A stretch of 37,619 nt of DNA from Methanobacteriota archaeon (GTDB lineage Archaea; Thermoplasmatota; Poseidoniia; Poseidoniales; Poseidoniaceae): positions 18,792 to 56,410 of the forward strand of contig PAZU01000005.1 in NCBI GenBank assembly GCA_002715725.1, read 5' to 3'. Below are positions 16,236-21,976 of the stretch, piece after piece. Under the pieces are notes generated by a model. The model ran no database searches, was not told where the DNA came from, and saw only the letters and a list, made by a program, of their open reading frames with translations. The position numbers were made by a program, and so were the translations under genes. How positions within the stretch are numbered: position 1 is the first letter of the stretch; each line of letters opens with the position of its first letter.

Positions 16236-16313
16236 TATTCTCTGCTCGAGATTCACCCCTTTGACGCTTACTAGAGGGAAAGGGACATGGACGGTCGGCT
16301 ATGTCGGAAGTAT

Positions 16314-17705
16314 ATGGGAGAGGTGCGAATTGAAGCTGACACCATGGGTGAACTAGAAGTCCCTGCAGACAGATACTATGGTTGTCAAACCGCTAGGTCG
16401 CTAATTAATTTCGATATTGGTGATGATAAAATGCCAAGAGGAGTTGTACGCGCATTCGGCATTCTCAAACAGGCTGCTGCCAAGGTAAATTCAGATTTAG
16501 GACAACTAGATTCCGATGTTGCTAAACTCATTATTTCGGCCGCTGAGGAAGTAATCAATGGTGAGTTGGATGACCATTTTCCACTAAGGGTTTGGCAAAC
16601 TGGTTCCGGTACTCAATCCAATATGAATGCCAATGAAGTAATCGCCAATAGAGCGATTGAAATGGCTGGCGGAGTTCTTGGTTCAAAATCTCCAGTTCAT
16701 CCAAACGATCACGTGAATCGTGCTCAATCATCCAATGATACCTTTCCTACTGCTATGCACATCGCAAGTGCTGAAGCGATAACTCATGACCTGATTCCTA
16801 ACCTAACTTTGCTTAGAGACTCGCTTTCACAAAAATCCGAACAGTGGTCGGATATTGTCAAGATAGGTAGAACTCATCTTATGGATGCAGTGCCACTTAC
16901 TCTAGGACAAGAAGCGAGTGGATGGGTTGCCCAACTTGATGCAGACCTAAGGAGAGTAGAGTTTGCATTGGAGGATTTGCATGAGTTGGCATTGGGCGGT
17001 ACAGCGGTAGGAACCGGTTTGAATACTCACCCTGAATTCGCTAAGCGTGTAGCTTCTGCAATAGCACTGAAGACAAATCTTCCTTTCACAACTGCGCCCA
17101 ACAAATTTTCACAATTGGCTGCGCATGATGCAATTGTTGCTGCAAGTGGTGCATTAAACACTCTAGCAGTAAGTTTGATGAAAATTGCAAACGATGTCAG
17201 ATGGTTAGGATCTGGACCCAGATGTGGATTACAGGAACTATCTCTGCCTGCAAACGAACCAGGTTCTTCGATTATGCCGGGCAAGGTAAATCCGACTCAA
17301 TCTGAAGCTATGACGATGGTTTGCTGTCAAGTTATGGGGAACCATACCGCAATAACTGTAGGCGGTAGCCAAGGAAATTTTGAGTTGAATGTATTCAAAC
17401 CCATGATGATTCACAATCTTTTACACAGTGTTAGAATTCTTTCAGATTCTATGCGCGCATTCAGGACGAAATGCATTGAAGGCATTGAGCCGAATGAAGA
17501 AGTGATCAGAAATCACCTTGAAAATTCATTAATGTTGGTAACAGCTTTGAACAATCATATTGGTTATGATAAGGCTGCAAAGATTGCGAAAAAGGCCCAC
17601 GAAGAAGGTACTACGTTAAGGGAAGCCGCTCTAGAACTTGATTATTTGACCAATGAAGAATTTGATCAATGGGTTCGGCCAGAAGAAATGACCGGCTCAA
17701 AATAA
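16314..17705 (+). CDS. fumC: Fumarate hydratase class II
   Basis: [52 protein letters not shown]; upstream in-frame ATG at 16287 possible. Confidence 0.93.
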
Positions 17706-17721: not shown

Positions 17722-17744
17722 GTTGTAAGATAGGAAATGACCCT

Positions 17745-18662
17745 TAACAGTCATAAGCGGAATGCACTGGCACCCGATTACCTGTGAGAGCAGGATGGGA
17801 GAACTGGCAAGGGGGTTTCATCCGGGTGGGATATCCGCCCCCTTGCCAGCCTCCGCTGGTGGCTGCCGGGTCGTCGTCACCTTCGTTTACTCCGAAGAGC
17901 ATCTTCCAGATCGTTGACGCCTTGTTGCCAAGACGCCTCCTTCCCAGCGGCCGGGTTTCTGTTCGCCTTCCACCGAAGTGGTTAGCTCCCAGGGTGGTTT
18001 TGATTCCTGCATCCCGAAAGATGCGTTCCTCTCTACCGGTTGCTGGTTCTCGTATTTCCACCGAAGTGGTCCTATTTGTTCCAGCGGTGCTGTCCGTTTT
18101 CTGAAGCAATCCTCAGACGCGGTTTCAGCGTGGAGGTCCGTTTCCATCTGCCTCCGAAGAGGCAGATGGCGCGGTTTCCGTCCGTGGCGTCCGTTTCCAG
18201 TTCTGTTTCCCGAAGGTCTCTTTCCTGGCGCGGTTTCGCCGTGCCGTTATTTGTGACAGAGGTTGTCCCGAAGAACTGTTACTGTCACTCCTACCGGCGA
18301 TGCACAGTCGTTGGTACTTCTGCGACTAGGTCGCAGCCCTCCCTGTTCCACATTTCCCGAAGGTTGTGTGGCTGACTCTTTGCCGAAGCTCCGAGCCATC
18401 CTGCGGGCGGGGGAACTTACGATCTCCGAAAAGTCCGTATCTTCCCTGACGCCTCACTTACTCTGTCTCCAGAGTTTGTGACCAACACTTTGCTCGGTTT
18501 GAGCAGGCCGGTTGGCAAGGGTCCCGGAGGCCTTCCGAGGAAGTCCTCCACCACTCCTTGTGGAGCGGCAATATTTCGTTGTGGCGAGGAGGCTGATAAA
18601 CTTTACGCTTTTTTAGGCCCTTTTCCAGCGGAAATGGGGGCTTGCGAGCAAGGTTTCCACTG
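17745..18662 (-). ncRNA. Candidate large structured noncoding RNA (~0.9 kb), family not recognised
   Basis: No convincing CDS; GC-richer than flanks; eight CCGAAG (minus strand cUUCGg) motifs at 17892, 17973, 18061, 18154, 18210, 18268, 18357, 18383, most flanked by complementary arms; perfect helices 18144-18154/18159-18169 (11 bp) and 17804-17815/17838-17849 (12 bp); TATA-like sequence upstream on minus strand. Boundaries approximate. Confidence 0.75.
18092..18237 (-). repeat. Three tandem modules inside the candidate ncRNA
   Basis: Plus-strand GTCCGTTTYC at 18092, 18136, 18189 each followed by a variable hairpin segment and GRCGCGGTTTC at 18116-18126, 18168-18178, 18227-18237. Confidence 0.7.
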
Positions 18663-18679
18663 CTTCCACTGGAAGAATT

Positions 18680-18700
18680 TGACAATAAATAACATTATTT
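18680..18700 (-). promoter_or_regulatory. Putative TATA-like element for the minus-strand ncRNA
   Basis: Minus-strand AAATAATGTTATTTATTGTC, AT-rich, ~25 nt upstream of the first hairpins (around 18660). Confidence 0.35.
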
Positions 18701-19717
18701 TCGTAAGGATCTGAGTTTGGCTGCAAGTGCTGAATTCCTACTATTTTCTTCTACGCTTTCTTGCTTAGAACGACGCTGAAATAATTCTCTTTCCCAAATC
18801 AAGATTTGTCCATCTTCAAAACCAAACCCAATTCGATTTTCAGAGGAATCTGATACTCTCGGCCTGGAAGTTTCTGCTGAAACCACTAGAGCTCCAATCT
18901 CGTCTCTAACCTCAATTTGTCCACGCATGGAATTCCATCTCCCGCACCAGTGTAAATCGTCAAAGCCTGCTATTTGTGTTGTGATTTGTGGCCCACTGGC
19001 AGTCCACATCTCTACGGATTCTGGAGTTCTAGCGACTAATTGGCCGTTTTCTAAAGCCGCAACGAATCCTTTCTCTAAACAAGTAAGAGATTCGATAGAG
19101 AATGGTTCTTTGCTAATCTCTTCGCCTTTAGAAGACGATACTGTCCCATCAGCATGGCCTAACAAGATGTTTTTTCGCCCAGACAAACCACACATTACTG
19201 GCGACATACTGGGTAAATCCCTATGCTCACCGTTAACCAATAGTCCGCATTTAGGCCGGCCAAGTGCAAGTGTCAAATCTTGGCCTGAATGCAAAAACCA
19301 TGGCCTCTCATCCATGCGAGTCACTTCGATTAACTCTCCATCAAGAGAAAAACGCCATATTGCGCTTTCCATAAAATCTCCATGCTCGATATCATAAACA
19401 CTTGAGGTGGCAACGATATTACCATCATGATATGCTAACAAATCTGCCGATCCTTCCAATGGATTGCTCCAAAGAATTTCCCCCGCTTTCACACAGGTGA
19501 TATGTAAACCAGAAGTCACTACTACAATTTCATCGATTCGTAATATTGCTTCGATTCGGTCTTCGCATTGAGTAGACCAAAGAATATCACCATCGCCATT
19601 CCACATCTTGAGAGCGCCATTCCACCCTCCTGCAATTATCGAATCTTCTTCGATGTCTAAGGAACTGACTGGTTGGCCTAAATCTCGAATCATCCAGGCC
19701 GCCTGAATCAAATCCAT
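18695..19717 (-). CDS. Beta-propeller (WD40/PQQ-like) repeat protein
   Basis: Recurring short repeats such as SIIAGGWNGALKMWNGDGDILWS..., LGHADGTVSS, IGFGFEDGQILIWERE. Confidence 0.7.
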   Translation of the reverse strand: MDLIQAAWMIRDLGQPVSSLDIEEDSIIAGGWNGALKMWNGDGDILWSTQCEDRIEAILRIDEIVVVTSGLHITCVKAGEILWSNPLEGSADLLAYHDGNIVATSSVYDIEHGDFMESAIWRFSLDGELIEVTRMDERPWFLHSGQDLTLALGRPKCGLLVNGEHRDLPSMSPVMCGLSGRKNILLGHADGTVSSSKGEEISKEPFSIESLTCLEKGFVAALENGQLVARTPESVEMWTASGPQITTQIAGFDDLHWCGRWNSMRGQIEVRDEIGALVVSAETSRPRVSDSSENRIGFGFEDGQILIWERELFQRRSKQESVEENSRNSALAAKLRSLRK

Positions 19718-20650: not shown

Positions 20651-21976
20651 CTACTTGATTGAAATGCGTCCTTCTGATTTCGAAATTAACTTTTGAAGTT
20701 CGGCTTGACCGCACCACAAAGTCATCTCCAACCCGTTTTTCTCTGTTACAATCCCCAAATCGTAAATTTGACTGACATAGGCTTCAGCATTGCGTTGATC
20801 GTGTTCAGATTCTGAGACAACGAGTGTCGTTTTAGGGCCGTATAATGAATACATAATCGCTTCACGCAATTCATCGAGCCCTTCTCCATTATGAGAAGAG
20901 ATTACCAATGGTTCAGACATACCCATTGCGGATACTATCTCTATTGCAGCATCTATGTCTCCGCCCAAATCGCTCTTTGTCAGAACTACTTTCAGACTAA
21001 TCCCTGATTCGTCCCCTCTATCGAGAACCTCTCTCCTCGTGGTTGACAGTTTTCTCTGAAACTCATTGGTTTCATCGCTGCTATCTACTACTAATAGTAA
21101 CAAATCGCATTGTAAGGATTCGTCCAAAGTAGCGTGGAATGCATCTAGTAAATCAGAGGGAAGTTCGTCAATAAAACCAATTGTGTCGGCTAATAGAATC
21201 CTGGGGCTCATCTCCATTCGGCCAACCGTTGTTTCGAGTGTGGAGAACAATTTGTCTTCGATTAATACTTCCTTACCAGATAACGCCAGAAACAAGGATG
21301 ACTTTCCTGCGTTAGTATAGCCTGCTAAGCCAACGGTTCTTGCTCCGCCTCTGGTTCTTTGCCTCCTTCTCTCTTTGCGCGCTAGAGCATGCTTTCTCTG
21401 CTTTTTCCTCAATTGAGTTAACTCTCTTGAAACGGTTGCCAAAACGCCTTGGATCGCTTGCTTTCCACCTGCACCGAAACCTGCTCTCTCCCCCGTAGTT
21501 TGCTGGTTAACTAATTCCCGAAGCACACTTCTATCTGCTTGCAATTGGGCTAATCTAACCTGAGTCTTTGCCTCAACGCTTCCGGCATGAGAAATAAACA
21601 ATGAGAGCAACAATCTAACTCTATCCCATACTTCTACTTGGACCGATTCATGAATATTTACGAGTTGTCTAGGTGATGAATTTGAATGTATGATTACCAA
21701 GTCTACGCCGTGCCATGGATGCCCTTCAACAGCAGTAGATATTTCGTCGGCTACATCCTGTAAACGACCCTTTCCAAAATACGTTCTCGGGTCATCCTTG
21801 CCTTTCTGATACTGGACATCAAGTACGTCTATCCCCATCGTTTCTGCCAAAGCAATCAATTCAGTAGGGTCGCCTTCCCTATGAAGCAACACAGCCTTGC
21901 GTCCTTCATGATTAGTTCGGGCTTCGCCCAATGCTACGCCACCAGTTCCCGCGAGAACACGGATTGGCTCATCCAT
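20651..21976 (-). CDS. hflX: GTPase HflX
   Basis: SPRQLVNIHESVQVEVWDRVRLLLSLFISHAGSVEAKTQVRLAQLQ; GLAGYTNAGKSSLF G1; LADTIGFIDELP G3. Confidence 0.93.
   Translation of the reverse strand: MDEPIRVLAGTGGVALGEARTNHEGRKAVLLHREGDPTELIALAETMGIDVLDVQYQKGKDDPRTYFGKGRLQDVADEISTAVEGHPWHGVDLVIIHSNSSPRQLVNIHESVQVEVWDRVRLLLSLFISHAGSVEAKTQVRLAQLQADRSVLRELVNQQTTGERAGFGAGGKQAIQGVLATVSRELTQLRKKQRKHALARKERRRQRTRGGARTVGLAGYTNAGKSSLFLALSGKEVLIEDKLFSTLETTVGRMEMSPRILLADTIGFIDELPSDLLDAFHATLDESLQCDLLLLVVDSSDETNEFQRKLSTTRREVLDRGDESGISLKVVLTKSDLGGDIDAAIEIVSAMGMSEPLVISSHNGEGLDELREAIMYSLYGPKTTLVVSESEHDQRNAEAYVSQIYDLGIVTEKNGLEMTLWCGQAELQKLISKSEGRISIK

Follow-up and report, generated by a model that had tools for sequence, protein, structure and literature searches.

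The window analysed here, a stretch of 37,619 nucleotides from a Poseidoniaceae genome, contains a gap of approximately 0.95 kb between fumC and a beta-propeller protein gene, as a sequence-only reading of this DNA had described. The fumC gene (16287–17705, plus strand) encodes a class II fumarase with PF00206 and PF10415 matches, and the beta-propeller gene occupies positions 18695–19717 of the minus strand. The earlier observations on the gap were reproduced: it was richer in GC than the window as a whole (0.57 versus 0.44) and carried eight exact CCGAAG motifs on the plus strand, corresponding to cUUCGg on the minus strand. We found that the gap holds a large structured noncoding RNA gene on the minus strand (17739–18575), directly downstream of the beta-propeller gene and convergent with fumC. 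Its length of approximately 835 nt is an estimate, as the 5' end was placed from promoter spacing and the 3' end near 17739 marks only the limit of alignable conserved sequence. The range originally proposed, 17745–18662, had its 5' boundary set too far upstream; because a promoter and a dyad element occupy 18591–18672, the upper part of that range is promoter DNA. Such an RNA gene explains a recurrent annotation gap.

The BLASTN search revealed copies of the RNA with approximately 71–96% identity in most genomes of the same genus, and 16 of these Poseidoniaceae copies were aligned with MAFFT to derive a consensus structure. The existence and strand of the RNA are well supported. The minus strand of the locus folded with a z-score of −10.05 and the plus strand with −4.46, each relative to only 20 dinucleotide shuffles, and the consensus folding energy of the alignment was −248 kcal/mol in the sense and −213 kcal/mol in the antisense direction. 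In each of the 16 homologues, the RNA strand carried 3–12 cUUCGg motifs and the other strand none; likewise, UUCG and GNRA loops appeared in the sense consensus structure and were absent from the antisense one. The minus-strand orientation suggested beforehand was thus borne out. No conserved open reading frame was found in the alignment, where 230 of 244 gap runs were not multiples of three and stop codons were present. On this evidence a protein-coding role is excluded, and the coding reading of the gap was rejected, in agreement with the earlier view that it lacks a convincing CDS.

The structure of the RNA is under selection. The 16-copy consensus comprised 207 pairs in 41 helices, and standard pairs made up 97.6% of all cells at these positions. 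Double-sided compensatory changes were found at 76 pairs, compared with 36.6 ± 3.3 in shuffled alignments, and the double-change cells numbered 226, compared with 63 in the shuffles. Upon sliding the partners by 1–3 columns, pairing fell to 35–44%. Deriving the structure from this alignment biases the comparison in its favour; nonetheless, both the shuffle and the slide controls remained far lower. A second alignment of 17 Thalassarchaeaceae copies (genus g14, mostly approximately 600 nt) gave 140 pairs, 39 of which had double changes versus 15.0 ± 2.2 after shuffling. With several hundred nucleotides, an elaborate structure supported by covariation in two separate alignments and no protein coding, the RNA has the structural and noncoding features by which a large ornate noncoding RNA is described, as had been proposed; a further feature, transcription as a discrete stable RNA, is predicted from its promoter. 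All nine hairpins and helices named in the sequence-only reading were present in the covariation-based consensus, most of them with double compensatory changes. In particular, such changes affected nine pairs of CUGCCUC-UUCG-GAGGCAG, five of CUGCGAC-CUA-GUCGCAG, four of GCAUCU-UUCG-GGAUGC and three of the GNRA hairpin, and GUUC-UUCG-GGAC was nearly invariant.

Three parts of the fold, all on the minus strand, were distinguished. The 5' hairpin, GCCGCUCC-ACAA-GGAGUGGU (18550–18569, helix 1), was 100% paired and is kept in both families, including the Thalassarchaeaceae copies. Helices 24–29 of the consensus make up three hairpin modules in tandem (18092–18237), whose internal loops are GAAACCG / GGAAACGGAC; we dropped a kink-turn interpretation of the recurring loops because it disagreed, by eye, with the consensus. 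The most widely conserved element is the 3' core hairpin (17787–17866), GCGGAG-stem-GAAACCC-stem-CUCCCA, which includes the 12-bp helix noted earlier. In a 29-copy alignment, this hairpin was 98.8% paired and showed 63 double-change cells versus 14.8 after shuffling. We also observed that certain unpaired purines were invariant and that GNRA loops were conserved among the copies, and this pattern of conservation suggests tertiary contacts. In genus g15, two tandem 3' core domains were found inside a longer RNA of approximately 1.25 kb (L047, 370–448 and 701–779; L090, 3900–3978 and 4201–4279).

Upstream of the first hairpin, we found a putative archaeal BRE/TATA promoter element (GCGTAAAGTTTATCAGCC) at 18591–18608 on the minus strand, with a predicted start site near 18573. 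In 47 of 51 loci, its TTTA(T/A) preceded the first hairpin by 32 nt; this count covers loci in which both were recognised and is not unbiased, since the search expression missed 10 of 61 loci. Further upstream on the same strand was a conserved dyad, CCAGTGGAA...TTTCCGCTGGAAAA (18621–18672), which a profile search placed upstream of the RNA in both families. The dyad pattern, located upstream of the TATA box, had a single occurrence in the genome, and the idea that stable RNAs in general use it as a promoter element was therefore rejected. The element is probably a transcription-factor site, and its unique, conserved character suggests a dedicated transcription factor. These elements bear on whether the structure might be a cis-acting 3' untranslated region that controls the stability or translation of the beta-propeller mRNA, with no separate RNA gene. 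The RNA always lies downstream of the beta-propeller gene on the same strand, even where fumC has moved, as such a region would. However, the conserved dyad and BRE/TATA element follow the stop codon and precede the first hairpin at a fixed spacing, and the beta-propeller gene occurs without the RNA in many genera. Moreover, 3' untranslated region elements are usually far smaller than an ornate structure of 600–1250 nt. Taken together, a 3' untranslated region appears rather unlikely.

Profile searches of fumC-flanking loci recovered the promoter region and the 3' domain of the RNA in the second family, and a covariance model (R2), built from 29 sequences of the 3' core hairpin, was used for a search across the order. 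The distribution that emerged is well supported. The 3' core was detected in 119 of the 245 sampled Poseidoniales genomes, with approximately one copy per genome in most carriers. It was present in all 11 sampled genera of one family (f2) and in three (g1, g2 and g7) of the 11 sampled genera of the other (f1); we infer that these are Thalassarchaeaceae and Poseidoniaceae, respectively, the two families of the order. As the covariance model did not find the core in the remaining 8 of 11 Poseidoniaceae genera, the RNA is not essential to the order. Outside Poseidoniales, a phylum-wide sample yielded only weak matches (G290, 30 bits; G402, 24 bits), which lay inside long open reading frames and were taken as chance. 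A broad pattern scan of genome contigs was too permissive and returned mostly chance bacterial matches. The searches gave zero matches in phage or viral contigs, and a phage or mobile origin was rejected.

The position of the RNA is conserved along with its sequence. Among the matches listed for both features, 69 genomes had the two on one contig, and in all 69 the beta-propeller gene was upstream and the RNA downstream on the same strand, the 3' core lying 473–1308 nt (median 704) past the end of the gene. The beta-propeller gene itself was found in 226 of 245 Poseidoniales genomes, many of them lacking the RNA, and thus does not depend on it. Where the RNA is absent, the gap is absent too, and the propeller gene abuts the next gene (examples in g3 and g11). 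The fumC gene is often the convergent neighbour but is not adjacent in g7 and part of g19; of the two flanks originally named, adjacency to fumC is not essential and the beta-propeller gene matters more. In genus g19 (L176, L177 and L185), fumC has moved relative to the propeller–RNA unit, which stayed together. A fumC-linked function was judged unnecessary because synteny follows the beta-propeller gene instead. The convergent orientation, and a 3' core that in g20 and g21 ends only approximately 24–33 nt from the end of the fumC match, would suit an antisense regulator of fumC. Antisense pairing would nonetheless leave the conserved structure unexplained, and the RNA of g7 and of part of g19 keeps its place by the beta-propeller gene although fumC lies elsewhere or is turned round; we regard this role as extremely improbable.

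Judged by Rfam, where it matched no family, and by open-licence papers, this large noncoding RNA of Poseidoniales had not been classified before. At the gathering threshold there was no match in the window, and with lax filters nothing significant was obtained for the locus or six relatives, which agrees with the proposal of a class outside known families. The archaeal RNase P model (RNaseP_arch, RF00373) and the archaeal SRP model (Archaea_SRP, RF01857) found this genome's copies at G000:C24:13124-13420 and G000:C45:8512-8817, respectively. These RNAs are also structured, archaeal and chromosomal, but they are located elsewhere and their models did not match the new locus; on these grounds, identity with RNase P, SRP or another Rfam RNA was rejected. 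The size and multi-domain fold would be compatible with a ribozyme or with a divergent version of a known RNA (RNase P, SRP, an intron or an rRNA fragment). Against this, Rfam covers those families and finds nothing, the RNase P and SRP RNAs are accounted for, and the locus is not flanked by an interrupted gene, which makes such an origin very unlikely.

OLE, GOLLD and ROOL are large ornate RNAs of bacteria and bacterial phages whose functions are mostly unsettled. Their Rfam covariance models did not match the RNA locus, yet they are the nearest kind to the new RNA (PMC12286853). Like OLE, a large bacterial RNA found in a ribonucleoprotein, the new RNA is hundreds of nucleotides long, ornate, chromosomal, single copy and located beside protein genes; unlike OLE, it is archaeal, its neighbour encodes a beta-propeller rather than an OLE-associated protein, and there is no sequence or Rfam similarity. 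GOLLD and ROOL share a length of approximately 600–850 nt and many hairpins with it, and GOLLD has a conserved 3' region and a less conserved remainder, as does the new RNA (PMC12286853). These likenesses, together with the dense structure and A-rich loops, would fit a protein-free homo-oligomer comparable to the GOLLD and ROOL nanocages. However, GOLLD and ROOL occur in phages and prophages of bacteria, frequently close to tRNA islands, whereas the new RNA is archaeal and chromosomal, with conserved synteny, apparently vertical inheritance and no phage, viral or Rfam match. A nanocage of this type is, in our judgement, unlikely. Another structured RNA of the same order is Tan1, an abundant noncoding RNA of Ca. 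Thalassoarchaea that ranked fifth in Red Sea RNA-Seq (PMC5069720). Its reported length, 229 nt, is far shorter than that of the new RNA; Tan1 may be a part or fragment of the large RNA.

A trans-acting structural RNA, transcribed independently, best fits a core that is conserved where the periphery varies, unpaired purines that do not change, GNRA loops and approximately one copy per genome, and the copy number and conserved synteny together resemble those of a chromosomal housekeeping-type RNA. We consider it probable that the locus encodes an unclassified large noncoding RNA with its own promoter that serves as a trans-acting scaffold in a ribonucleoprotein or a homo-oligomer. Under this scaffold reading, the RNA would be transcribed on the minus strand from its own archaeal promoter, downstream of the beta-propeller gene. 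It would fold into several domains, among which the 5' hairpin and the 3' core are conserved and the periphery, capped by UUCG and GNRA loops, varies between lineages. Like OLE, GOLLD or ROOL RNA, it would most likely serve as a stable scaffold acting in trans, and the scaffold would sit in a ribonucleoprotein particle or a homo-oligomer. A class of similar size to these, present in all sampled Thalassarchaeaceae genera, would add abundant marine archaea to the hosts of large ornate RNAs. The RNA is kept under selection across many marine Poseidoniales, and its job is now testable: a promoter has been mapped, and domains, a conserved core and a candidate partner protein have been identified, which opens its transcription, structure and binding to direct study.

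The candidate partner is the beta-propeller protein. The protein of the window had no Pfam match above the cut-off, and its AF2 model (pLDDT 91.2) revealed a confident PQQ/WD40-like propeller with C-terminal helices. The Poseidoniales family shares the conserved motifs SSVYDIE..D, ERPW and GRPRCG, and the C-terminal helix carries an invariant LRxLR tail (LRxRLRxLR-type). The RNA might form the core of an abundant archaeal ribonucleoprotein or RNA-only particle with this tailed protein as its partner, which would constitute a large-RNA machine specific to abundant surface-ocean archaea. Since the beta-propeller persists without the RNA, a dedicated partnership is only a candidate, and we view this proposal as speculative and rather unlikely. 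Elsewhere in the window, a gene for an HflX-like GTPase (20651–21976, minus strand) scored just above the NCBIfam cut-off (TIGR03156, 223.5 versus 216.75 bits) and appeared ordinary.
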